Shown here: one piece after another, positions 1 through 10,989 of the stretch
Layout: every line of letters begins with the position of its first letter
Position numbering within the stretch: the stretch's first letter is position 1
Assembly: GCA_938016505.1 (NCBI GenBank)
Contig: CALLWN010000221.1
Location: forward strand, 1-11,071
Direction of reading: 5' to 3'
Length of the DNA: 11,071 nt
DNA from: an uncultured Sphingomonadaceae bacterium
GTDB taxonomy: Bacteria; Pseudomonadota; Alphaproteobacteria; Sphingomonadales; Sphingomonadaceae
Translations under genes and position numbers: made by a program
Notes under the pieces: generated by a model
What the model saw: only the letters and a program-made list of their open reading frames with translations
The model's database searches: none
What the model was told of the DNA's origin: nothing

Positions 1-615
1 GAGCTTCGCACCGCCGACGGCGCGGTCTTCCGCGCCGGCCAGGTCATCCTCGCGCTTCCAGCAAGCGCGCTGCGCCGCGTCACCATCGATCCCGCGCTCC
101 CCGCCGGCCAGCAGGAGGGGGTCGATCTCCTGCCCTACAACCGGGTGTTCCAGGCCCATTTCGTGCCCCGCCGCCGGTTCTGGGAGGCCGACGGCCTGCC
201 GCCCTCGATGTGGACCGACACCCTCGCCGGCCGGTTCGTGGCGCTGCGCTACGGGCCCGACCGGCAGGAGGTCACCAGCCTCGTCGCCTTCGTCTCCGGC
301 TTCCAGGCCGACCGGCTCGACCGCATGGAGCCGGCCGCCGCCGTCGCCGCCATCCTCGACGATCTCGCCATGCTCAGGCCCTCGACCCGGGAGGCGCTCC
401 GCCCGGTCCGCACCCTGTCCTGGGCGCGCGACCCCTTCGCCGGCGGGGCCTATGCCTGCTGGGCCCCGGGCCAGGTCGCCCGCTTCGCCAACCTGCTGCC
501 GCGCGCCCACGGCCGGATCCACTTCGCCGGCGAGCACACCGCAGAGGTCGCCCGCGGCATGGAGGGCGCGATGGAATCCGGCCAGCGCGCCGCCCTCGAG
601 ATCCTCACCGCCTGA
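1..615 (+). CDS. Flavin-containing amine oxidase, C-terminal part (5' truncated by window edge)
   Basis: The reading frame is open from the first base to a TGA at 613-615, giving 204 residues. The N-terminus, with the Rossmann GxGxxG motif and any export signal, lies outside the window. The C-terminal stretch HFAGEHTAEVARGMEGAMES (bases 520-579), followed by GQRAALEIL, matches the last FAD-binding segment of the monoamine oxidase / L-amino-acid oxidase superfamily: AGE-T, then a Gly-rich turn and SG-xAA helix. GGAYACWAPGQ, before it, resembles the G-Y-x-x-W-x-PG segment of the same fold. The family uses FAD to oxidise an amine to an imine, with H2O2 as the usual by-product; the substrate cannot be told here. 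The gene sits 32 bp upstream of a DUF1838 gene in the same direction and probably leads or continues that operon. A GTG at 145 is internal, not the start. The superfamily call is firm; the sub-class is open. Confidence 0.88.
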   Translation, partial: ELRTADGAVFRAGQVILALPASALRRVTIDPALPAGQQEGVDLLPYNRVFQAHFVPRRRFWEADGLPPSMWTDTLAGRFVALRYGPDRQEVTSLVAFVSGFQADRLDRMEPAAAVAAILDDLAMLRPSTREALRPVRTLSWARDPFAGGAYACWAPGQVARFANLLPRAHGRIHFAGEHTAEVARGMEGAMESGQRAALEILTA

Positions 616-647: not shown

Positions 648-1526
648 ATGGACCGCCGTGACGCCCTTCACCTCCTCGGCCTGACCGCAGGCGCGCTCGC
701 CGCCCTGCCCGCTTCGGCAGCCGCCGCCCGGCGCGGCCGACGGGCCGCCCCGGCCGCGCTCCCGCTCGATGATCCGCGCTTCCACATGCACACCCTCGCC
801 AGGCTCCAGGGCGATCTCTCCGGCCGCCCGCTCTACGGTTACAGCCGCGGCAAGGTGTTCGGCCTCACCCCCGGCGCGGGCCTGCCGATCGCAGACTATG
901 GCCGCCGCCTCTACGACTATGAGGGCGGCAGCGTGTCGCGCTCGCGCCTCCTGCCAGACGGCAACATCGAGACCGTCTCGAGGAGCTTCCTCTTCTACAC
1001 CGACCCGGAGACCGGCGCCTATCTGGCCGAGTGGACCAACCCGGTCACCGGCAGGACCGTGCCGGTGCCGCCCTTCCGCGGCGGCATCTCGGGCTCGGTG
1101 CTCACCCCCATGGGCCCGAAGGTGAGCGCCAGCTTCACCATGGAATCGACCGTGTTCGGCCGCCCGCCCCGGCTCGAGTTCGTGACCATGGGCGATGTCA
1201 CCTTCGTCAGCCGGGTCGCCTTCACCCGCTGGACCCCGAAGGGCGAGTCGCGGGCCCGCACCGAATATACCCAGGACGACTGGGTGGTCCGAACCGCCGA
1301 CCTCCTCGACAGCCGCCGCACCACCCTGTCCGCCACCAGCGCCTGGACCAGCCAGACCGAATGGCAGACCTGGCTCGAGATGCCGCCGGGGACGCCCGGC
1401 GCCCAGCTGTGGCGCGCCAATGGCATGAAGACCCACCGGCTCGAGGATCTTCCGCCCGCCTTCCTTGCCGAGGTCGAGGCGAAGCACCCCGGAATCCTGA
1501 CCGATCCGCTGGAGTTCACGGCATGA
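648..1526 (+). CDS. DUF1838 family protein, copy 1, Tat-like signal
   Basis: This 292-residue protein starts at ATG 648 with a good ribosome site (GAAAGGA at 635-641, six bases upstream); longer in-frame starts overlap the amine oxidase. Residues 1-33 form a Tat-like leader: twin Arg at 3-4 (RRDALHLLGL), an Ala-rich hydrophobic stretch, then AAAA, so export to the periplasm is likely. The mature part resembles DUF1838, a family of unknown function. Shared landmarks with copy 2 at 4936-5841 are DPRFHMHTLARL near residue 42, a FxDPxTG-A-W-NPxT block in the middle, PFRGG, and a C-terminal WRANGMK / LPPAFLAE block. No catalytic motif I recognise is present. Its stop overlaps the start of the nitrilase-like gene (ATGA), which implies translational coupling and possibly a shared complex. 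I recognise the family from pattern memory and cannot assign a reaction. Confidence 0.82.
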   Translation: MDRRDALHLLGLTAGALAALPASAAAARRGRRAAPAALPLDDPRFHMHTLARLQGDLSGRPLYGYSRGKVFGLTPGAGLPIADYGRRLYDYEGGSVSRSRLLPDGNIETVSRSFLFYTDPETGAYLAEWTNPVTGRTVPVPPFRGGISGSVLTPMGPKVSASFTMESTVFGRPPRLEFVTMGDVTFVSRVAFTRWTPKGESRARTEYTQDDWVVRTADLLDSRRTTLSATSAWTSQTEWQTWLEMPPGTPGAQLWRANGMKTHRLEDLPPAFLAEVEAKHPGILTDPLEFTA

Positions 1527-2692
1527 GCAACATCCCACCCGACCCTGGCCCCGACCTGTCCCGCCGGGCCCTGCTCGCCAGCCTCCCGCTCGGCGCCGGG
1601 GCCGCCGCCACGCTTGGCCCCGCGCCGGCCGATGCGGCGACGGGGCGCGGCCCCGACACGGTCAGCGTGCGCGCCGATGGCACCTACCAGACGGTGCCGC
1701 TCGCAAGACCGGTGGTGCGGCTCGGCATCGTCCAGAGCCGGGTCCGCCCGATCGACGGCACGAGCGCTGCCGCCGCCCGGCGCGGCCGGGCCGAGAATCT
1801 CGCCCACATGCTCGAGCTCGTCGATGCGGCGCAGGCCTATGGCGGCGGCGCCGACCTGCTCTTCTTCCACGAGTTCCCCATCACCGGCTGGTCGTGGGAG
1901 TGGGACCGGCGGCAGGCGCTCAACGTCGCGATCGACATCCCCGGCGAGGAAACCCAGGCGATCGCGGCAAGCGCCCGCCGCCACGGCTGCTGGATCGTGT
2001 TCGGCTCCTATGCCCGCGATCCCGACTGGCCCGGCCACCTCCTCTCCATCACCACCCTCATCGACAGCGACGGCCGGATCGTCGACCGGCACTGGAAGGC
2101 GCGCAACATCATCGGCGTGTTCGCCGGGTTCGAGCTGTTCACCACCACCATCCACAATGTGCTCGACCGCTATGTCGAGATGTACGGCCGCGACGCGGTG
2201 GTGCCGGTCACCCGCACCCCGCTCGGCAACCTCGCCACCACCTCGACCCAGCGCGAGTTCGAATATGTGCGGGCGATGGCGATGAAGGGCGCCGAGATCA
2301 TCCTGCGCACCGCAAGCGGCGGCTTCTCCGAGCTCGATGTCCAGGCCACCAGCTACTACAACGGCGTCTACACCGCGATCTGCAACAACGCCATCTCGCC
2401 CGGCATCCGCGGCTTCTTCGAGGATGCCGGCGGCGGCGGCTCGGCGCTCTACGGCCCGCGCGGTGAACTGGTGGCCCGGGCCAAGACCCAGGTCGAGGAG
2501 CTGGTGCTCGCTCCCATCCCCATCGCCGACTTCAGGGCCCGCCACCGCCAGCCCAACGTCCACACCGATCTCGTGCTGGCCGAGTATCAGGCCCACCGCT
2601 CGCGCCACGCACCAGGCCTGTTCCAGCAGCAGCTCCCGCCCGACGGCAAGGCCGCGCTCGACTTTCTCTCCCGCCAGAGCCGGTGGAAATAG
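1523..2692 (+). CDS. Nitrilase-superfamily (carbon-nitrogen hydrolase) protein, copy 1, exported, catalytic Cys missing
   Basis: The protein has 389 residues and starts at ATG 1523, overlapping the DUF1838 stop, with GGAG at 1511-1514 as ribosome site. A Tat-like leader is visible (SRRALLAS, residues 13-20, then a hydrophobic Ala/Gly stretch ending near ADAATG). The nitrilase fold is suggested by HEFPITGW (residues 116-123; Glu117 fits the first catalytic Glu), DRHWKARN (Lys192 fits the catalytic Lys) and GNLATTSTQREFEY leading into AMAMKGAEIILR (251-262), which resembles the aliphatic amidase AMKGAE segment. In active relatives the Cys nucleophile lies just before this last segment; here the aligned positions are Thr240/Ser241. 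The only cysteines left are Cys156 (GCWI) and Cys287, both elsewhere. It may be a binding protein, a partner subunit, or an enzyme with a Ser/Thr nucleophile. Its homologue at 3786-4916 shares DPDWPGH, HWKA and RTPxGN motifs. Confidence 0.85.
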   Translation: MSNIPPDPGPDLSRRALLASLPLGAGAAATLGPAPADAATGRGPDTVSVRADGTYQTVPLARPVVRLGIVQSRVRPIDGTSAAAARRGRAENLAHMLELVDAAQAYGGGADLLFFHEFPITGWSWEWDRRQALNVAIDIPGEETQAIAASARRHGCWIVFGSYARDPDWPGHLLSITTLIDSDGRIVDRHWKARNIIGVFAGFELFTTTIHNVLDRYVEMYGRDAVVPVTRTPLGNLATTSTQREFEYVRAMAMKGAEIILRTASGGFSELDVQATSYYNGVYTAICNNAISPGIRGFFEDAGGGGSALYGPRGELVARAKTQVEELVLAPIPIADFRARHRQPNVHTDLVLAEYQAHRSRHAPGLFQQQLPPDGKAALDFLSRQSRWK

Positions 2693-2695
2693 GGC

Positions 2696-3778
2696 TCAGC
2701 AGGCGGCAGGCGCGCGGCGGCCGACCAGCTCGATCCGGAACCCCTCGGCAGTCGCAAGGACAAGGCTCTGCCGGCAGCCGCCGGGCTCCGGCACCTCGGC
2801 AGGGCCGGCCACCACGCGCACCCCCGCTGCCCGCGCCGCGTCCGCCCGCGCCGCAAGATCGTCCGCCTCGAAGGTCCACATCATGAGGCCGCGCGCGTCA
2901 GGCGCGCCGTGCGCTGCCGGCCGGCCTGCCCCGTCCCGGTAGTGGATGACGACCACATAGCCGGTCGCAGCTCCCGGCGCGAACCACTGCTGGAAATCGA
3001 ACCGGGTGCCCGCCGGCAGGCCAAGCCCCCCCTCCGGGCCGGCGCTCCCGAGCTCGACCTCCCGCCGCTTCTCCAGCCCGACCACGTCGCCGAGCAGCCG
3101 GGAGAGCGCCGGAAGATCGGCGACGACGATGCCCGAATAGGCCGGCCCGCCCGCGCCCGCGGCCGGATCGATCGGCCCGACAGGGGCCATCTCGCCCCGG
3201 TCGATGCCAAGCACATAGAGCCCGTCGGGCGCCAGCAGATGGACTTCGCCCACGCTGTAGCTGCTGCCGTCGCCGCGCGGCAGGGTGATGCTGGTGAGGC
3301 CGGCGGAAGACCGGAAGCCGAGCCCCTCGAGGCGCGCCAGCAGCGGAGCATTGCCGGCCGAGGGAAAGCCGAGCGAAAGCCCGCCGGGCAGCCGCGCATC
3401 ATGCCCCGGCCTGACCATCGGCGCATCGGCGCCGAGCGCGATCGCCCGCACCCGCGCCGCCCCGGCAACGGCCGGGCGGGTGCAGGCGAGCATCTCGAGC
3501 GGGCCATCGCCCGCCATCCCGTAATGGCGGCGGAACCGCGCTGCCGGCCCGGCCTCGAGGCGTTCGCGCGTGCACGCCATGCCGAGGCCCTCGCCATAGA
3601 AGCGGGCAACCGCGTCGAGATCGGCCGCGCCGAGCGTCACCTCGGCCAGCGGGGAGACGCGCGCCTCGGCCCCCGCGACCGGGGCAAGCGGGTCCACCGC
3701 GCCGCCGCCGGCTGCTCCGGCCGTGGCCACAGACGCCATCAGCAGGGCAGCAGCTGCGCGCACCGGCTTGCCGATCAT
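2696..3778 (-). CDS. Exported VOC (glyoxalase/bleomycin-resistance fold) protein 1, two VOC domains
   Basis: This 360-residue protein starts at the ATG at 3778-3776, 7 bp after the stop of the nitrilase-like gene. Its ribosome site is weak, so coupling to the upstream gene is likely. Residues 1-24 look like a Sec signal peptide (MIGKPVRAAAALLMASVATA, then GAAGG). The rest holds two VOC domains, roughly 43-195 (LAEVTLGAADLDAVARFYGE, GLGM) and 213-355 (YSGIVVADLPALSRLLGDVV, GLEKR, and near the end EGFRIELVG). VOC enzymes bind a divalent metal through His/Glu and catalyse isomerisations, epimerisations or dioxygenations. Here the first strand of domain 1 has Glu46 rather than the usual His, and domain 2 also lacks it (SGIVV), so metal chemistry is doubtful. 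It is last in a four-gene leftward run. The fold call is good; the function is unknown. Confidence 0.82.
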   Translation of the reverse strand: MIGKPVRAAAALLMASVATAGAAGGGAVDPLAPVAGAEARVSPLAEVTLGAADLDAVARFYGEGLGMACTRERLEAGPAARFRRHYGMAGDGPLEMLACTRPAVAGAARVRAIALGADAPMVRPGHDARLPGGLSLGFPSAGNAPLLARLEGLGFRSSAGLTSITLPRGDGSSYSVGEVHLLAPDGLYVLGIDRGEMAPVGPIDPAAGAGGPAYSGIVVADLPALSRLLGDVVGLEKRREVELGSAGPEGGLGLPAGTRFDFQQWFAPGAATGYVVVIHYRDGAGRPAAHGAPDARGLMMWTFEADDLAARADAARAAGVRVVAGPAEVPEPGGCRQSLVLATAEGFRIELVGRRAPAAC

Positions 3779-3785
3779 GTCCGGC

Positions 3786-4916
3786 TCACAGCTTCCAGCG
3801 TCGCCTGGCAGCGACCAGGCGCGAGGCGTCCTCGAGCGTCTCGGGCACGCGGGTGGCATAGGCGTTGGGTTCGAATCGGGAGCGATACTGGGCATAGACC
3901 GGGGCATAGAGATCCCACGACATGTCGGGAATGAGCCCGCCCTCGCGGCGGCCGGCGATGTCGAGCGTCGCACTCACCGCCGTCTCATGCTCGCGCGCGG
4001 TGGCCAGCCGCTCGCCCCTCAGGCCATAGATGGCCGTGTTCCCCAGCATCCCGTTGTCGGGGAAGTAGCGCGGGTTGCCCGGCGACAGCGCGTTCGACAT
4101 GTAGAGCGTGTAGGCCCGGTTGACCCTTGACGTCAGCTCGCCGTCGGCCTCGGTGTAGCCGCCAAGCCCCGAGCGCACGAAGATCTCGGCGCCCTTCATC
4201 GCCAGCGCGCGGTAGAGTTCGGGCTCGCGGAACACCGACGACATCGCGATGTTGCCAATGGGGGTGCGGGCGACGGGCAGCACGGCATCGGCCCCGTAGC
4301 GCTCGACATAGGCATCGAGCACGTCGACGACATGGGTCACGAAATAGTCCACCCCGGCGCGCTGGCCGCGCTGGGTGGTCGCCTTCCAGTGGGTCGCGGC
4401 GATCCGCCCCTCGGGCGAGGCAAGGAACATCGCGTCGATCACATGGCCCGGCCAGTCCGGCGCAACCATGTAGCCCCCGAACGCGATCCAGCAGCCATAT
4501 TGCTTCGCCCGGGCACAGATCGCCTCGGACTGCGGCCCGGGCACCCGCAGCGCGATCAGCTCCAGCTCGCGCTTGGTCCACTTGTCCCAGCCATGCAGCG
4601 CCTGCGCATGGATGGTCAGAAGATCCTTCTGGCCGAAATAGTTGAGCACGGCATCGATCTGGTCGATCACATGGGCGAGGTTCCGCCTGAGGTCGGCTTC
4701 GCGGCTCGCCACCGAAACGTTCAGAAGCGCGGTCTGGATCGCCGTCGCCCGCACCTGCGGCTGCGCCAGCGGCACCCCGGCATAGCCGCCGTCGGGCGCG
4801 ACCATCGCCGGCGTGTCGCCGGTGGCCGGCTGCGCCGAGGCGTCGCCGGCACGGCCGGCGCCCGCCAGCCCGAACAGCGAGACAAGGCCAAGCAGGCGTC
4901 GGCGGTCGATCGGCAT
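3786..4916 (-). CDS. Nitrilase-superfamily (carbon-nitrogen hydrolase) protein, copy 2, exported, catalytic Cys and Glu missing
   Basis: The protein has 376 residues. The ATG at 4916-4914 is chosen over longer frames because GAGGAGGGGGAGA precedes it and the Tat-like leader begins there: Arg5-7 (DRRRLLGL), a hydrophobic stretch, then GDASAQPA. It is homologous along its length to the product of 1523-2692: GCWIAF (141-146; GCWIVF in copy 1), APDWPGH (152-158), THWKAT (175-180, Lys178 retained), ARTPIGN (216-222), ALAMKGAEIFVR (237-248) and a C-terminal RRWKL. The segment matching the first catalytic Glu is HAQALHGW (103-110), with Ala104 where copy 1 has Glu117. The nucleophile position is NIAMSSVF (222-229), Ser226/Ser227 instead of Cys. 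Only Lys of the Glu-Lys-Cys triad remains, so amidase or nitrilase activity by the usual mechanism is unlikely. It follows DUF1838 copy 2 by 19 bp. Confidence 0.85.
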   Translation of the reverse strand: MPIDRRRLLGLVSLFGLAGAGRAGDASAQPATGDTPAMVAPDGGYAGVPLAQPQVRATAIQTALLNVSVASREADLRRNLAHVIDQIDAVLNYFGQKDLLTIHAQALHGWDKWTKRELELIALRVPGPQSEAICARAKQYGCWIAFGGYMVAPDWPGHVIDAMFLASPEGRIAATHWKATTQRGQRAGVDYFVTHVVDVLDAYVERYGADAVLPVARTPIGNIAMSSVFREPELYRALAMKGAEIFVRSGLGGYTEADGELTSRVNRAYTLYMSNALSPGNPRYFPDNGMLGNTAIYGLRGERLATAREHETAVSATLDIAGRREGGLIPDMSWDLYAPVYAQYRSRFEPNAYATRVPETLEDASRLVAARRRWKL

Positions 4917-4935
4917 GGCGGTCGTCTCCCCCTCC

Positions 4936-5841
4936 TCAGCCGCCGGTCCAGGCGGCGAACTCGGCAATCGTGCCCGGCCAGCGCCGCTCGGTCTCGGCAA
5001 CGAACGCCGGCGGCAGGGCGTCGATCCGGTCGAGCTTGCGCCCCGAGGCCCGCCACACATGGTGGCCCGGCCAGTTGCCCATCCGCATGAAGGGCATCCA
5101 GTCGTTGGTCATCACCCAGGTCTCGATCACCGGCACGAACGGCCGCGCGGTGTCGAGGAGCGCGCGGCGGCTGAAGGCGAAGCTGCGCACCTGCATCTCG
5201 TGCCTGACCGCCCCGGTCGAGGCGACCGGATCCTGCTCGGGCGTCACCTGGGCCGGAAAGGCGATGAACTGCTCGATCGTGCACACGCCCCGGTCGCCAT
5301 CGAAGTCCCACTGGTAGAGCTGCGGGGGAAGCGGCTTGGCAAGCGCCTCATGGCCAACACGGCCCTGGCCCGCGACGGTCCACAGATGCTTCATGCCGCC
5401 ACCGCCGCGGAAGTGCGGCAGCGGGCCCTCCTGCCGGGTGTAGGGGTTCTGCCAGCGCTCGGCGACAGCACCCGTCCCGGGGTCGCGGAACAGCAGCCAC
5501 TCGCGCAAGCCCAGCGCATAGCCGCTGCCATCGGCAAGCGGCCGGAACAGCCGCGCCGCGCACCCCTCGAAGCCGAGCAGCGCCCGGGCATGCTCGCCCG
5601 GCCGCCTCCCGAACAACATCCCCCGGGCATGAAAGAAGCTGACCCGGCCGTCGGTCCGGCCGAGCAGCCGGGCGACCGCGTGCATGTTGAAGACCGGGTC
5701 GGCAAACCGCGGGTCGGCCGCGGCCATCGCTGCCGCGTCGGCCGCCGGCACCGCCACGCCGCCAAGCCCGAGGCCGAGCCCGAGAAGCTCCCTGCGGCCG
5801 AGGCCGGCGCCAGCGTCTGCCGGGGGCGCGTCAGGCGTCAT
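4936..5841 (-). CDS. DUF1838 family protein, copy 2, Tat-like signal
   Basis: The protein has 301 residues. Its ATG (5841-5839) overlaps the TGA of the VOC gene (5840-5838) in an ATGA arrangement. No Shine-Dalgarno is seen, so translation is probably coupled. The leader is Tat-like: LGRRELLGLGLGLGGVAVPA, with Arg16-17, ending in ADAAAMA. The mature region is homologous to the protein at 648-1526: DPVFNMHAVARL near residue 48, FRDPGTGAVAERWQNPYT in the middle, PHFRGGGG, and near the C-terminus WRASGRKLDRIDALPPAFVA. Conserved aromatic and Arg residues suggest a ligand-binding fold, but no known active site is seen. The gene order DUF1838 then nitrilase-like repeats that of the plus-strand operon. 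The reaction is unknown. Confidence 0.82.
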   Translation of the reverse strand: MTPDAPPADAGAGLGRRELLGLGLGLGGVAVPAADAAAMAAADPRFADPVFNMHAVARLLGRTDGRVSFFHARGMLFGRRPGEHARALLGFEGCAARLFRPLADGSGYALGLREWLLFRDPGTGAVAERWQNPYTRQEGPLPHFRGGGGMKHLWTVAGQGRVGHEALAKPLPPQLYQWDFDGDRGVCTIEQFIAFPAQVTPEQDPVASTGAVRHEMQVRSFAFSRRALLDTARPFVPVIETWVMTNDWMPFMRMGNWPGHHVWRASGRKLDRIDALPPAFVAETERRWPGTIAEFAAWTGG

Positions 5842-6455
5842 CGCGGCGGGTAGGCCAGCTCGATCGCCTCGCGCTCGGTCAGCACGAAGCGAACCCCATT
5901 GGGGTCGACCAGCCAGGCCATGCGGTTGCGCCCCGGGCTCGGCGCGCCCGGCGGCGAGAGCAGCGTGCAGCCGGCAGCGACAAGGCGCGGCACCACCTCG
6001 TCCATCGCCGTCGTCTTGACGAACAGCGCCGCCATGCCGGTGCCGGGCGCGGCCGGCGCAACCCCGCCGCCCTCGGGCACCAGAAAGCCGATGTTGCCGG
6101 TCGCGACATTCCCCGAGACGAGGACGAACAGCCGGGCCCGCGCAGCAGCCTCGAGGCCGAACAGCGCGCCAAGCCGGGCGTCGCCGAGCGGGGATCCGCC
6201 CTCGTAGGCGAGGCTGAAGCCGAGGATGTCGCGCCAGACCGCGAGCGCCGCGCCGGCATCGCCCACCACGAAGGTCACCCGCCACAGCGCTGCCGGACCC
6301 GGCACCGGCACCGGCGCCGGCACTGGCACCGGCACTGGCACTGGCGCCGGCACTGGCGCACCATCCGGCGCAGCGTCGGCAGCCGCAGCGCCCGAGGCGA
6401 GGAGAAAGCCGCAGGCCAGCGCCCGCGCGAGTCGTCTTGTCATGCCGAAGATCAT
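5838..6455 (-). CDS. Exported single-domain VOC protein 2 with an (Ala/Val)-Pro repeat linker
   Basis: This 205-residue protein starts at the ATG at 6455-6453, because GGCGGAG lies eight bases upstream; an inner ATG at 6443-6441 has no such site. Residues 5-28 form a signal sequence (TRRLARALACGFLLASGAAA). Next come ten (Ala/Val)-Pro dipeptides at residues 33-52, a stiff spacer, and then one VOC domain (about 57-200): LWRVTFVVGDAGAALAVWRD and GFSLAYEGG in the first half, and MAALFVKTTAMDEVVPRLVA, AGC and WLVDPNGVRFVLTERE in the second. The first strand has no His where metal-binding VOC enzymes usually carry one. A spacer after a signal peptide could hold the domain away from a membrane or partner, but no lipobox is seen. 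It is first in the leftward run and overlaps the DUF1838 gene by 4 bp. Confidence 0.82.
   Translation of the reverse strand: MIFGMTRRLARALACGFLLASGAAAADAAPDGAPVPAPVPVPVPVPAPVPVPGPAALWRVTFVVGDAGAALAVWRDILGFSLAYEGGSPLGDARLGALFGLEAAARARLFVLVSGNVATGNIGFLVPEGGGVAPAAPGTGMAALFVKTTAMDEVVPRLVAAGCTLLSPPGAPSPGRNRMAWLVDPNGVRFVLTEREAIELAYPPR
6300..6359 (-). repeat. Ten-unit hexanucleotide tandem repeat inside VOC protein 2
   Basis: Ten six-base units of the pattern GGCRCY (plus strand) lie in phase with the codons and encode ten Ala-Pro or Val-Pro pairs (residues 33-52 of the VOC protein). Units differ only at R and Y. Gain or loss of whole units keeps the frame, so only linker length would change. Confidence 0.9.
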
Positions 6456-6510
6456 GGTAAATGCTCCGCCGCACCGGTCCAGACCCAATGACCCGATCGG
6501 CGGAGAGATG
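6456..6510. promoter_or_regulatory. Compact divergent intergenic region with an inverted-repeat pair of ribosome sites
   Basis: Only 55 bp separate the start of the leftward VOC gene from that of the rightward hydrolase gene. CTCCGCCG (6464-6471) and CGGCGGAG (6498-6505) are exact reverse complements 26 bp apart, and each contains the Shine-Dalgarno of the gene next to it. The space is too small for two separate promoters, so at least one should lie inside a coding region or overlap the other. I see no convincing -35/-10 pair. The inverted repeat may be mere matched ribosome sites or may act as an operator or RNA hairpin. Confidence 0.45.
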
Positions 6511-7344
6511 ATGCCAGACCGCAGGACCCTGCTCGCCGCGGCAGCCGGACTCGCTGCTGCCCCCATGGCCGCACCTGCCACCCCTGCCTGCGGCCCGGGG
6601 CCATCCTCCACCCCCCGGGCGACCTATGTCCTCGTCCACGGCACCTGGCTCGGCGGCTGGATCTGGGCCGGGGTCGCCGATCGGCTCCGCGCCCTCGGCC
6701 ACCATGTCTACACCCCGACGCTGACCGGCTGCGGCGAGCGCCACCACCTGATCGGGCCCGACATCGGGCTCGACACCCATGTCGCGGACATCACCGGCGT
6801 GATCGACTGGGAGGGGCTCGAACAGGTCATCCTCGTCGCCCACAGCTTCTCCGGCATCGCCGCAACCGGCGCCGCCGACCGCAGGCGGGCGCGGATCCGC
6901 CGCATCGTCTTCTTCGATGCCCTCATCCCCGTCCCCGGCCGCATGTCCGGCGTGGCCCGCAACCCCGATGGCAGCCTGCCCGACTGGTGGCTGAAGCGCG
7001 CCGAGGGCTTCGAGGGCGGCTACGCCATGGACTTCTGGAAGAGCTACAAGGTGGACATGCTCGTGCCGCCCGAGCGGGAGGATCTGGTCGCCCTCCTCAG
7101 GGCCCGCATCACGACCCACCCGGCCAAGGCCTGGCTCGACGAGCTCGTCCTCGAGAATGGCGGCTGGGAGGGGCTGCCCCGCACCTGCATCCGGGCCATG
7201 GCGCAGCGCTACAGCCCGTCATCCGAGCGGATGTGGGGCCCGGCGCGCGGCCCCGGCTGGCAGCTGATCGAGCTTGCCGTCACCCGCATGGGAATGCTGA
7301 CCGAACCGGAGATCCTTGCCGCATGCCTCGCGTCCCTCGCCTGA
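6511..7344 (+). CDS. Exported alpha/beta hydrolase, hydroxynitrile lyase/methylesterase-like, catalytic Asp and His missing
   Basis: The protein has 277 residues from ATG 6511; ATG 6508 is one codon earlier and too close to the GGAG at 6502-6505. The leader is Tat-like: DRRTLLAAAAGLAAAPMAAP (residues 3-22). The fold is clear from VLVHGTWLGGWIW (40-52, oxyanion-hole region), LILVAHSFSG-type nucleophile elbow (VAHSFSG 109-115, Ser112) and FFDALIPVPG (134-143), all typical of the plant salicylate-methylesterase / hydroxynitrile-lyase-like branch. Against the usual bacterial pattern RTYIRCxxDR, this protein reads RTCIRAMAQR (224-233), with Gln232 at the Asp position. Against TGHxxMLxxPE it reads VTRMGMLTEPE (257-267), with Arg259 at the His position. 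Only Ser112 of the triad appears to remain. It may bind a ligand, or catalyse a reaction that needs no full triad. The next gene overlaps its 3' end by 22 bp. Confidence 0.85.
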   Translation: MPDRRTLLAAAAGLAAAPMAAPATPACGPGPSSTPRATYVLVHGTWLGGWIWAGVADRLRALGHHVYTPTLTGCGERHHLIGPDIGLDTHVADITGVIDWEGLEQVILVAHSFSGIAATGAADRRRARIRRIVFFDALIPVPGRMSGVARNPDGSLPDWWLKRAEGFEGGYAMDFWKSYKVDMLVPPEREDLVALLRARITTHPAKAWLDELVLENGGWEGLPRTCIRAMAQRYSPSSERMWGPARGPGWQLIELAVTRMGMLTEPEILAACLASLA

Positions 7345-8372
7345 ACCCCGCCGCTCTCCCCGTCGCCCTCCTCGCCACCGGCCTCGCTGCCGGCCCCGCC
7401 GTGCCCGCAGCGGCGGCCGAACGGGCCTTCACCCTCCTCGACGATGCGTCCGCCTACCTCGTCATGGACAACCAGTCGGCAGCCGTCAGGACCGAGGACG
7501 GCTTCGTCTTCACCGCCGGCATCACCGGCATGGACCCGAACACCCGCAGGTTCGTCGCCGACGATGCCGCAGCCCAGATGGCCGCCGCGATGGACAATCT
7601 CGAGGCCATATTGAAGGCCGCCGGGGCGACGCTTGCCGATCTCGTCCAGGTCACCTTCTGGACCGCCTCGCTCGACGACTATCGCGCCGCCAACCCGGTC
7701 TATGTCGCGCGCATGGCCGGCCACCGGCCGGCCCGGTCGGTCATGGGCTTCACGCCCTGGGATCCCCGCTTCCGGGTCCAGATCCAGGCCGTGGCGAAGG
7801 TCCGGCCGCAGGCTCCGGCGGGGCGCCCGTCGCCGCCGTCACCGGTGCCGCCTGCAGCCGAAGACCGGGTCCCTGCCATCCTGCCCGCACCCCCCGGGCC
7901 CGGCTGGCAGGCGCCAGCCCGCGCTGCCGACATCGCCGCGTGCAGCGAGCCGGTCCTGATGCTCGTCATGGGCGCGCTCTCCGAACGCGGCTTCGCCAAG
8001 CCCGAGGGCGCGCCAATGTCCTACGGCGAGGCGCTGCGGGCGTCCGGCCTCTACCAGCGGCTCGACGGCTTCTACCTTCTCTCCGGCCGCCCGCTCGAGG
8101 TGTTCGAGGGGGATTGGACCCGGCGCGACATGGCGCTCGTCGCCGAGTTCCCCTGCCTCGAGGCGGCGCGCGCCTTCTACTGGTCGAAGGCCTACCAGGA
8201 GATCATCCCGCTGCGCGCCGGCGCGGGCGATTTCTTCCTCGGCGTCTGGCCCAAGCGCAGCCGCGAGGAGATGGGCCGCCCCCCGGCGGCCGCGCCGGCC
8301 TCTGGCCTCAGAAGCGGGCCCGGGCCGTCACCCCCGCCTGGGGCCCCCGCGGCAATGTCCCCTCGGCGATGA
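7323..8372 (+). CDS. Exported RidA (YjgF/YER057c/UK114)-DUF1330 fusion protein
   Basis: The protein has 349 residues. ATG 7323 begins a Sec-type leader (PAALPVALLATGLAAGPAVP, ending AAAAERAF), with GGAG at 7308-7311. Residues 35-160 form a RidA domain: GFVFTAGITGMDPNT, MDNLEAILKAAGATLADLVQ, then VTFWTASLDDYRAANPVY and RPARSVMGF. Arg138 in PARS fits the arginine that RidA uses to bind imino-acid carboxylates. The usual C-terminal EIEAIA strand is QIQAVA here (Gln153, Gln155), losing the conserved Glu pair. A Pro-rich linker (161-200) leads to a DUF1330-like domain at about 208-309 (EVFEGDW, AEFPCLEAARAFYWSKAYQE, IIPLR). RidA proteins hydrolyse reactive enamines/imines to ketones and ammonia; DUF1330 is a ferredoxin-like fold of unknown role. 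The tail (about 311-349) is Pro/Ala/Gly-rich and low in complexity. Its last 21 residues lie antisense to the receptor gene. Confidence 0.83.
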   Translation: MPRVPRLNPAALPVALLATGLAAGPAVPAAAAERAFTLLDDASAYLVMDNQSAAVRTEDGFVFTAGITGMDPNTRRFVADDAAAQMAAAMDNLEAILKAAGATLADLVQVTFWTASLDDYRAANPVYVARMAGHRPARSVMGFTPWDPRFRVQIQAVAKVRPQAPAGRPSPPSPVPPAAEDRVPAILPAPPGPGWQAPARAADIAACSEPVLMLVMGALSERGFAKPEGAPMSYGEALRASGLYQRLDGFYLLSGRPLEVFEGDWTRRDMALVAEFPCLEAARAFYWSKAYQEIIPLRAGAGDFFLGVWPKRSREEMGRPPAAAPASGLRSGPGPSPPPGAPAAMSPRR

Positions 8373-10617
8373 AATTGGCCGAGCGGCTGGCCGGCAGCCG
8401 GGCGCCGGGGGTCGCATCGAGGTTCAGGAACCGGCCCGAGGCGAGGATGGTGCGGTCGTTGAGCACATTGCGACCGAAGGCCTCGATCTCGAACCGGTCG
8501 AACGAAACGGCCGCGGCAAGGTTGAGCAGGGTCTGGGTGCCGAACCGGTCGGTGTTGAGCTCGGTGCCGTAGCGGTCGCCGGTCACGTTGAGGTCGGCGC
8601 GCAGCCGCCAGCCCAGCCCCCGCGCGGTCTCGTCGGCAACCACTGCCGTGAAGGTGCCCGAATGGGCCGGAATGTAGCGCGGCCGGTTGCCGACCAGGAA
8701 GTCGCGGCTGTCCTGGCCGAGCAGGTCGAATGCCTCGCGCGTGGTGAAGCCTGGGCGGTAGCCGGCGTCCATGTAGGCATAGTTGGCCTCCAGGGTGACG
8801 AGCGGAACCGGGCGGGCAACCAGCGTCGCCTCGAGCCCGGTGATCCGGGCATCGCCCTGGTTCTGGCGGAAGACCCGCAGCGTCGTCGGGTCGCCGGGCA
8901 CCGCCTCGCGCGCGCTCTCGCCGAAGATGTCCTTCCAGTCGATCCGGAACAGCGTCAGGTTCGCGACCAGCCGCCGGTCGAACCAGACCGAGCGCACGCC
9001 CGCCTCCCAGTTGATCGTGCGCTCCTCGCGCACCGGCTTGCCGGTGTCGGAGGCAAGGCTGGTGGCGCCCGGCCGCGCCCCTTCCGCGTAGGAGCCATAG
9101 AGGTTGATGTCGGGGGCCAGCCGCCACTCGACGGTCAGGCGCGGCAGGAACCGCGAGAAGACCACCTTCTCCTTCAGCACCTGCTGGCCGGTCGCGCCCA
9201 CCTGGCGGGTATCGGTGCGGGTGATCTGGTCCTCCTGCAGCCGGCCCTCGGCGGTCAGCGTGACCGGCCCGAACGTGTAGGCAAGGCTGCCGAAGCCGGC
9301 GATGTTCTTGGCGAGGTCGCGGTCGGGGTAGGCCAGGATCTGGGCGCCCTTCAGCCGCTCGAGATCGAAGATCTCCCGATAATAGTTGGCCCCGAACGAC
9401 CAGCGCAGCCCCGAGGTCGCAGTCGAGAGCAGCCGCACCTCCTGGCTCAGGCTCTCGAAGGTGCCGGCGTCGATCGCCTGGCTTCCGGTCGGCAGCGCCG
9501 GCGAGTCGAACACCGAGGCGACAACCCGGCTCTGGTTCGACCGCTGCTCGTAGGTCTGGCGGTTCCACGCCGTGGTCGAAACCAGCCTGACCGGCCCGCG
9601 CTCGAAGGCGATCGTGCCGGTTGCGATATGGGTGTCCTGGTCGAACCCCGGGCCCTTGGGCCCGAGGTCGTCGTCGCGCATGTTGATGACGAGATCGCGC
9701 GAATCAAGCTTGCCGCACACCCAGCCGATCTCGTCGAACACCCCCGGGATCCGCGGCGCGGGGATCGGCGGGCGGGCAGCGCGCTGCAGGCAGTTCTGGT
9801 TCCTGTAGCGCGACGGGAACTGGCCATAGGCGCCGGGGCCGTTGCGGTCGCCCACATAGATGTAGGTCAGCCTCGCCTCAACGCCCGGCGCTGGCGCGAA
9901 GTCGAGCCCAAGGTTGCCGGAGAAATTTTCCTCAGCCCCGTAGACCCGGCCCGAATAGAGGTTTCGGTGCTCGCCGCCGTACTGGTACCAGCTGCCCCCC
10001 AGCCGGAAGCCAAGCCCCGCGATCCCGGTCGGCCCGGCCAGGCTCCCCTGGGCGCGGTAGGTGTCATGGCTTGCCGCCATCACCTCGGCCTGGCCCTCCA
10101 GCCGGTCCCCGGGCCGCCGCGGCACGAAGTTGATCGCGCCCGCATAGGTCGCCCGGCCATAGAGCGCCGACTGCGGCCCGCGGATGATCTCGAGCCGCTC
10201 GATGTCGCCGAGCGGCAGCGTCTGCAGGTTGGCAATCACCGGTGCGCCGTCGATGAAGAAGCCGAGCACCGAGCGGTTGCGATAGGGGTCGAACAGCGGC
10301 GAGGAGATGCCCCTGACCGATGGGCGGAAGTCGGCCGCGTTGGTGCGGGAGTCGAGAATGAGCCCCGGGGTCGCGCTGACGAGATCCTGCAGGTTGGTGG
10401 CGCCGCGCGCGCGGATCTCGTCGGCGGTGAAGGCGCGCACCGAGACCGGGGCATCCTGCAGCCGCTCCTGCTGGCGCCGTGCCGTCACGAGAATGTCGCC
10501 GATGCCGCCGGCCTCGCTGCCGTCTGCCGCCTGCGCACCCGCAGGCCGCGGGGCGACCACAGGCCCCAGCAGCGCGAGCGACGCCAGAAGCAGGGCACGA
10601 ACGGTCGGAAAGGTCAT
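8308..10617 (-). CDS. TonB-dependent outer-membrane receptor
   Basis: The protein has 769 residues. The ATG at 10617-10615 is preceded by AAGGGGAG at eight bases and starts a Sec signal peptide (residues 1-29: VRALLLASLALLGPVVAP, ending AGAQA); a longer in-frame start at 10677 would put charged residues ahead of it. Residues 41-48 (DILVTARR) fit a TonB box. The plug domain (about 53-170) shows QDAPVSVRAFTADEIRARGA, LQDLVSATPGLIL, LGDIERLEIIRGPQSALYG and AGAINFVPRRPG. The rest is beta-barrel with alternating aromatic strands, ending in Phe769, the usual terminal aromatic for barrel assembly. No FecA-type N-terminal signalling domain is present. Such receptors take up large or scarce ligands using TonB/ExbBD energy; this one is of the sphingomonad type often found beside catabolic genes, and probably serves the cluster. 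The ligand is unknown. Confidence 0.93.
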   Translation of the reverse strand: MTFPTVRALLLASLALLGPVVAPRPAGAQAADGSEAGGIGDILVTARRQQERLQDAPVSVRAFTADEIRARGATNLQDLVSATPGLILDSRTNAADFRPSVRGISSPLFDPYRNRSVLGFFIDGAPVIANLQTLPLGDIERLEIIRGPQSALYGRATYAGAINFVPRRPGDRLEGQAEVMAASHDTYRAQGSLAGPTGIAGLGFRLGGSWYQYGGEHRNLYSGRVYGAEENFSGNLGLDFAPAPGVEARLTYIYVGDRNGPGAYGQFPSRYRNQNCLQRAARPPIPAPRIPGVFDEIGWVCGKLDSRDLVINMRDDDLGPKGPGFDQDTHIATGTIAFERGPVRLVSTTAWNRQTYEQRSNQSRVVASVFDSPALPTGSQAIDAGTFESLSQEVRLLSTATSGLRWSFGANYYREIFDLERLKGAQILAYPDRDLAKNIAGFGSLAYTFGPVTLTAEGRLQEDQITRTDTRQVGATGQQVLKEKVVFSRFLPRLTVEWRLAPDINLYGSYAEGARPGATSLASDTGKPVREERTINWEAGVRSVWFDRRLVANLTLFRIDWKDIFGESAREAVPGDPTTLRVFRQNQGDARITGLEATLVARPVPLVTLEANYAYMDAGYRPGFTTREAFDLLGQDSRDFLVGNRPRYIPAHSGTFTAVVADETARGLGWRLRADLNVTGDRYGTELNTDRFGTQTLLNLAAAVSFDRFEIEAFGRNVLNDRTILASGRFLNLDATPGARLPASRSANFIAEGTLPRGPQAGVTARARF

Positions 10618-10902: not shown

Positions 10903-10989
10903 TGGTGCCCAGGAAAGGACTCGAACCTTCACGGCCTCTCGGCCACTGGTACCTGAAACCAGCGCGTCTACCAATTCCGCCACCTGGGC
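10903..10989 (-). tRNA. tRNA-Leu, anticodon CAG
   Basis: Read on the minus strand, the 87 bases start GCCCAGG and end CCTGGGC-A-CCA, a perfect seven-pair acceptor stem with discriminator A and an encoded CCA (10905-10903). The D-arm (GGCGGAATTGGTAGACGC), an anticodon stem CTGGT/ACCAG enclosing the loop TTCAGGT (anticodon CAG), a long variable arm (GTGGCCGAGAGGCCGT) and the TΨC arm (GGTTCGAGTCC) follow in order. The long variable arm and the anticodon make it a class II leucine tRNA. Its 3' end faces the receptor gene. Confidence 0.97.

Follow-up and report, generated by a model that had tools for sequence, protein, structure and literature searches.

Two conserved modules of predicted exported proteins with DUF1838 and cysteine-less nitrilase-fold families beside a TonB-dependent receptor

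Gene content and conservation of the two modules

The window analyzed here is the whole of an 11,071-nucleotide contig (CALLWN010000221.1; C221) from the draft genome of an uncultured Sphingomonadaceae bacterium (GCA_938016505.1, here G000; 2.30 Mb, 374 contigs, 82.7% complete), a hot-spring bacterium that we infer to belong to the genus Thermaurantiacus. It carries ten protein genes and one tRNA-Leu (Table 1), and the protein genes form two back-to-back modules. Module A reads amine oxidase-DUF1838A-nitA-vocA and module B reads nitB-DUF1838B-vocB-hydrolase-RidA-receptor. Both contain a DUF1838 protein and a nitrilase-fold protein without the catalytic cysteine, and we propose that they are probably two related uptake-and-conversion modules of the cell envelope, together forming the front end, in the periplasm, of a catabolic pathway.

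Table 1. Features of the window, with module, predicted leader and supporting match.
Feature	Positions	Strand	Support
Flavin amine oxidase, C-terminus; module A	1..615	+	PF01593 4e-33; truncated by contig end
DUF1838A; Tat-like leader; module A	648..1526	+	PF08894 67.8 bits (cut-off 25)
nitA, nitrilase-fold (CN_hydrolase) without catalytic Cys; Tat-like leader; module A	1523..2692	+	PF00795 1.2e-24
vocA, VOC/glyoxalase-fold; Sec-like leader; touches modules A and B	2696..3778	-	PF00903 6e-9
nitB, nitrilase-fold without Cys and without first Glu; Tat-like leader; module B	3786..4916	-	PF00795 2.2e-8
DUF1838B; Tat-like leader; module B	4936..5841	-	PF08894 74.8 bits (cut-off 25)
vocB, VOC-fold; Tat- or Sec-like leader, Pro-Val-rich linker; module B	5838..6455	-	PF00903 6e-7
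Alpha/beta hydrolase-fold; Tat-like leader; module B	6508..7344	+	PF12697 1e-15
RidA-DUF1330 fusion; Sec-like leader; module B	7323..8372	+	PF01042 4.5e-20; PF07045 1.4e-10
TonB-dependent receptor; Sec-like leader; module B	8308..10617	-	PF00593 (barrel) and PF07715 (plug) above cut-off
tRNA-Leu, anticodon CAG; adjoins receptor	10903..10989		

A first-pass annotation made from the letters alone had named the same ten genes, and Pfam recovers them at the same positions and in the same families, with PF00795 above its cut-off in both nitA and nitB. None of the NCBIfam models listed for the window proteins reaches its cut-off. For the receptor this holds for all 25 listed models (0/25), the top match being a TonB siderophore subfamily below threshold (160 of 223.5 bits), and its cargo is therefore left unnamed. 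The proline-valine repeat at 6298-6360 forms the vocB linker after the leader, and the 3' ends of the RidA-DUF1330 and receptor genes, on opposite strands, overlap by 65 bases (8308-8372).

Relatives were found through the nitrilase-like family, and all neighbor counts are conditional on that family. The resulting 92 loci comprise the window, eleven stretches from the G-numbered genomes and 80 named loci, which are the best 80 of 161 confirmed relatives, after removal of nine duplicates; several are close kin or come from a single genome, and some lie on short contigs. A further 20 stretches, around CpeT or weaker nitrilase-like matches, enter the maps, hidden Markov models, alignments and tree but are excluded from the leader table. 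The best 80 include Xanthomonadales, Phenylobacterium, Acidobacteria, cyanobacteria and one Dactylosporangium.

In Thermaurantiacus tibetensis (G002) both modules are present in separate places. Its module B keeps the gene order of the window, and its module A lies on a different contig, where DUF1330, cytochrome c, a receptor of its own and a CpeT-like-cluster protein stand upstream (L033/L053, L035). Each module in this species thus has its own receptor, and the receptor of the window is that of module B. In a second congeneric relative (G001; L036, L037) vocA travels with module B, and module A is without DUF1838. Receptor, CpeT-like, amine oxidase, DUF1838 and nitrilase-like genes follow in the same order in a genome of a different genus (G041, L038), with one gene inserted before the last. 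The neighborhood is kept fully within the genus and partly across phyla, and the lack of conservation that would have spoken against the first-pass annotation was not seen; the single set that it described is conserved but consists of two modules, only one of which the window's receptor belongs to.

The separation of the modules in both relatives, together with the origin of the window from one contig of a 374-contig draft, would also fit a chance co-location of secreted proteins that share no pathway, or a joint made in assembly. We regard this as very unlikely. Each module is conserved as a block of its own, and vocA adjoins nitA in T. tibetensis and nitB in G001, which makes the joined order of the window plausible as the ancestral one; a chimeric contig is disfavored on the same grounds. 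The families also co-occur across genomes. Among 148 genomes drawn around that of the window, DUF1838 is present in 35, the nitrilase-like family in 34 and both in 32 (hypergeometric P 1.2e-26, uncorrected for kinship), the 34 including weak matches (from 1e-10) that partly belong to a second cysteine-less subfamily. Across the class, DUF1838 occurs in 5 of 289 sampled genomes. Synteny and matched genome presence support a shared function of the set.

Predicted export

Leaders were called with a home-made, permissive rule in place of SignalP, and export is thus predicted. The twin-arginine (Tat) part asks for RRx[LFVIMA], a hydrophobic core and an A-x-A-like site, and the general secretory (Sec) part for a positive n-region, a hydrophobic core and a cleavage site. 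At the stated starts, all nine window proteins with a visible N-terminus are positive (9/9). Six are Tat-like (both DUF1838 proteins, nitA, nitB, the hydrolase and vocB), three of which, nitB, vocB and the hydrolase, pass the Sec rule too; vocA, RidA-DUF1330 and the receptor are Sec-like. As a control, 13 regions of 20 kb each, placed at even intervals in T. tibetensis, were treated in the same way, and 56 of 222 complete genes were marked when any start was tried (16 Tat, 40 Sec), or 41 of 222 at the called start alone. Against this rate, nine leaders in nine proteins have a binomial P of ~4e-6. The observation of the first-pass annotation that every visible start is Tat- or Sec-like is hence confirmed as real and beyond chance at the level of predicted leaders; a mostly negative signal prediction, which would have spoken against it, did not occur under the rule.

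Predicted leaders are kept in the relatives. In module B of both G001 and G002 they are marked on vocB, RidA-DUF1330, the hydrolase, DUF1838B and nitB. The vocA leader is the least secure of the nine because the protein is unmarked in G001 and the T. tibetensis copy is marked through an alternative start only. Over all genes of the 92 loci, 478 of 1,525 have a leader, and the marks separate by family. Amine oxidase (23/23), DUF1838 (23/25), the hydrolase family (8/9), CpeT-like proteins (8/9) and nitrilase-like proteins (76/99; 72 Tat-like and 4 Sec-like) are at the high end. No leader is seen in polysaccharide-deacetylase-like (0/23), SDR (0/21), methyltransferase (0/17), f11 (0/16) or SMP-30-like (0/13) proteins, and small DUF1330 (5/21), abh9 (5/21) and voc3 (4/25) are intermediate. 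Despite the permissive rule this family-wise split is informative as a prediction. In a tree built from 101 nitrilase-like sequences, of which 76 have a leader and 25 have none, leader state changes 6 times, compared with 22.5 when shuffled. The same-genome paralogue nitC has no leader, and its neighbors in T. tibetensis are a Rieske oxygenase and a methyltransferase.

VOC relatives elsewhere are mostly unmarked (21/25 of voc3 and 14/15 of voc13 without a leader), and predicted export of the VOC and RidA proteins is mainly seen in Thermaurantiacus. The proposal of the first-pass annotation that proteins of usually cytoplasmic families are exported is partly supported; for VOC and RidA it mainly concerns this genus, and some members may bind rather than convert their ligand.

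Altered enzyme families and DUF1838 barrels

The nitrilase-like family belongs with the CN-hydrolases by fold and profile. A model of nitA (predicted local distance difference test, pLDDT, 91.2) has an amidase fold and matches the aliphatic amidase 2uxy (Foldseek 1.1e-17), and the family is similar to aliphatic amidase by profile (7e-18). Among 101 aligned sequences, Glu117 is retained in 98 and Lys192 in 90, with Arg in the other 11 rows at the latter; the three exceptions at Glu117 are the three nitB proteins, which have Ala and read HAQ. The family differs from the CN-hydrolase superfamily in its mostly Tat-like leader and in lacking the nucleophile: no sequence has a cysteine at columns 240-242 (0/101), and the Glu-Lys-Cys triad is therefore incomplete. 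Cysteines occur off-site at column 238 in 21 rows and at column 239 in one, and at the strand end where a nucleophile would be expected to sit, position 240 is Ser or Thr in 88 of 101. A canonical CN-hydrolase paralogue from the same genome has cysteine at the aligned site, and ordinary nitrilase or amidase activity is rejected as stated. The genome holds seven CN-hydrolase genes, four of them cysteine-less (one on C35, two on C221, one on C313); one canonical paralogue was aligned, and two others lie outside that alignment. The C35 copy represents the second cysteine-less subfamily, in which Ser replaces Cys and Arg replaces Lys.

The hydrolase is altered as well. The three Thermaurantiacus copies read AHSFSG and TRMGM, as against GHSYGG and [GS]HDAM in six relatives outside the genus, and the expected histidine, which we take to be catalytic, is Arg in all three (3/3). 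This shared change suggests a loss of catalysis in the genus. Given nitrilase-like proteins without the cysteine and a hydrolase without the histidine, some exported members may bind rather than catalyze. In the RidA domain, whose imine deaminase site presumably consists of Arg and Glu, the Arg of the PARS motif is retained and the expected Glu is Gln in three aligned copies (judged by eye against the expected motif). The full-length amine oxidase of T. tibetensis has a Tat-like leader and matches structures of L-amino-acid oxidase and monoamine oxidase.

An AlphaFold2 model of DUF1838A (pLDDT 82.8) is a barrel whose matches include, among others, the bilin lyase CpeS and nitrobindin. We group the phycobilin lyases CpeS/CpeT, nitrobindin and DUF3598 as calycin-type barrels; their identity to DUF1838 is 5-11%, and the comparison shows no sequence kinship. 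The top Foldseek match of DUF1838A is a haemophore, and it is weak (4.5e-4, TM 0.31). Together with the sub-threshold siderophore-receptor match noted above, it would suit a role in handling tetrapyrroles or heme for iron or cofactor supply, with the barrels as haemophore-like carriers for the receptor. We consider this unlikely, as catabolic enzymes recur near the homologues and heme oxygenase is unassociated with the set: it occurs in 12 of 148 genomes, only 2 of which are in the nitrilase-like set. On the latter count, breakdown of the bacterium's own heme was rejected too.

Neighboring genes and candidate substrate

Among the 92 loci, a receptor is present in 38, amine oxidase in 23, DUF1838 in 23, a PuuE-like deacetylase in 18, DUF3598-like in 13, CpeT-like in 12, a type III CoA-transferase in 11, HMG-CoA-lyase-like and isochorismatase-like in 6 each, and LeuC-like and RipC-like in 4 each. 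The 13 control regions of T. tibetensis contain one receptor and none of the other listed families. These names rest on matches of single representatives to Pfam, NCBIfam and the PDB, several of them below NCBIfam cut-offs; in one scan of imide-type neighbors, only the LeuC-type and HMG-CoA-lyase subfamily models pass. One CpeT-like neighbor matches CpcT. DUF3598-like proteins in L066 and L074 score 21.3 and 23.7 bits (cut-off 22), and L066:3944-4444 has no match. In one genome (G139; L161 and L162, on the same contig) nitrilase-like, DUF1838, CpeT and amine oxidase genes stand together with imide-type genes; these two loci also hold LeuCD-like, HMG-CoA-lyase-like, CoA-transferase, isochorismatase-like and polysaccharide-deacetylase-like genes and, by eye, an adjacent putative hydantoinase pair and a TRAP-like transporter. 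In the cyanobacterium Geitlerinema sp. BBD 1991-9 (L061:8319-12613) a CpeS gene stands on each side of the nitrilase-like homologue, and a third one and a tetrapyrrole methylase gene are nearby.

Catabolic loci linked to TonB receptors, of the SusCD type and similar, are known, and they likewise place a receptor beside exported enzyme-like proteins. The window differs in that its proteins belong to families of cytoplasmic enzymes and some of them lack residues needed for catalysis, and no SusD family is found among its ten proteins. The PuuE-like, isochorismatase-like, LeuCD-like, HMG-CoA-lyase-like, CoA-transferase and RipC-like neighbors of the homologues recall the degradation of cyclic imides, maleamate and itaconate-type compounds, and we assume the corresponding roles for them, but none of these genes lies inside the window.

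In the proposed pathway, the receptor, judged by its family, would let a bulky ligand through the outer membrane, and the predicted exported proteins would bind and process it in the periplasm. The flavin oxidase, putatively exported by Tat, may act on the ligand, the DUF1838 barrels may carry it, and the cysteine-less nitrilase-fold proteins may use the Ser/Thr as a nucleophile or only hold it. The VOC proteins and the hydrolase-fold protein would take part in this processing, and the RidA domain could deal with imines released by the oxidase. The product would then enter the cytoplasm. There, the PuuE-like, isochorismatase-like, aconitase/LeuCD-like, CoA-transferase and lyase enzymes of relatives with more of these genes could together achieve the opening of cyclic imides and the cleavage of the diacids. 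For the first-pass idea of a periplasmic pathway fed by the receptor, conservation backs the shared pathway, and feeding by the receptor is still an inference.

Our leading guess for the substrate, held with less than even confidence, is a tetrapyrrole or a bilin-type compound. It draws on the barrel matches, the CpeS neighbors, the CpcT match and the imide-type enzymes, and on the consideration that four activities would be required to break down maleimides (imidase, amidase, hydratase and lyase), a set that resembles the homologue neighbors. One study gives hematinic acid as a product of the chemical oxidation of chlorophyll a and lists methyl-, methyl-ethyl- and methyl-vinyl-maleimide among the products of heme and chlorophyll, although maleimides went undetected in leaves there (PMC7318184); another counts maleimides among the compounds that arise when tetrapyrrole pigments are degraded (PMC8669743). 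The modules might then, possibly rather than probably, be the outer-membrane and periplasmic part of an undescribed, widespread bacterial pathway for bilins or chlorophyll catabolites, with import by the receptor, DUF1838 and CpeT-like carriers, processing by the oxidase and the cysteine-less nitrilase-fold proteins, and mineralization of maleimide-type fragments by imidases, amidases, hydratases and CoA lyases in the cytoplasm.

The same front end could instead serve another large natural product that carries an amine or ring nitrogen (an alkaloid, another pigment, or a terpenoid or steroid derivative), with CpeT-like, DUF3598-like and DUF1838 proteins as general hydrophobic-ligand carriers. 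We see this as a real possibility, short of an even chance: the amine-oxidase, VOC, SDR, MFS, ADH and CoA enzymes near the homologues are generic, and the oxidase is closest to amino-acid and monoamine oxidases. The distribution of CpeT (PF06206) speaks against it, however, as all 14 of the 148 genomes that carry it fall inside the nitrilase-like set of 34 (14/14; P 9.5e-11), as do the CpeS neighbors in one cyanobacterium and the combination of PuuE-like, isochorismatase-like and LeuCD-like genes, which suits cyclic imides. PuuE-like protein itself was rejected as a marker (39/148 genomes, only 20 within the nitrilase-like set); close copies (69-84% identity) occur in 14 genomes, 13 of them in the set, and that of the window's genome is a fragment on C71. 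Two photosynthetic reaction-centre genes on contig C111 of the same draft indicate that the host is probably an anoxygenic phototroph. Reaction-centre genes are present in 21 of 148 genomes, 10 of them shared with the nitrilase-like set compared with 4.8 expected (P 0.0065), and photosynthesis by the host is kept as a weak candidate explanation for their presence in the set, given that five of the ten shared genomes are of one genus.

Several observations weigh against the tetrapyrrole pathway and its envelope front end. The heme oxygenase distribution described above is one. Neither the draft genome of the window nor T. tibetensis has a PF06206 match, the CpeT-like-cluster protein of the latter is without any Pfam match, and two other cyanobacterial loci have no CpeS among the listed neighbors (one neighbor scanned in each). 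Outer-membrane barrels (scores of 9.4-9.7) and designed barrels match DUF1838 as well as tetrapyrrole binders do, and generic catabolic families occur among the neighbors. In addition, 23 of 99 nitrilase-like proteins are leaderless, a single species supplied the control regions, and the nitrilase-like family was the basis on which the 92 loci were picked. The evidence is computational throughout.

In searches of one open-access literature library, no description of these genes was found, nor was any bacterial gene set described as mineralizing chlorophylls or bilins; the name DUF1838 appears in one paper there, in a gene table. New here are the cysteine-less nitrilase-like family, the DUF1838 barrel model, the co-occurrence of DUF1838 with the nitrilase-like family, and the CpeS/CpeT and imide-type neighbors.

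Chlorophylls and bilins rank with the most abundant of all pigments, and if the tetrapyrrole pathway is true, a step of the carbon cycle would be opened to genetics, and DUF1838 and an exported cysteine-less nitrilase-fold family would gain a testable role. Even without a substrate, a conserved set of predicted exported and partly altered members of cytoplasmic enzyme families is unusual.

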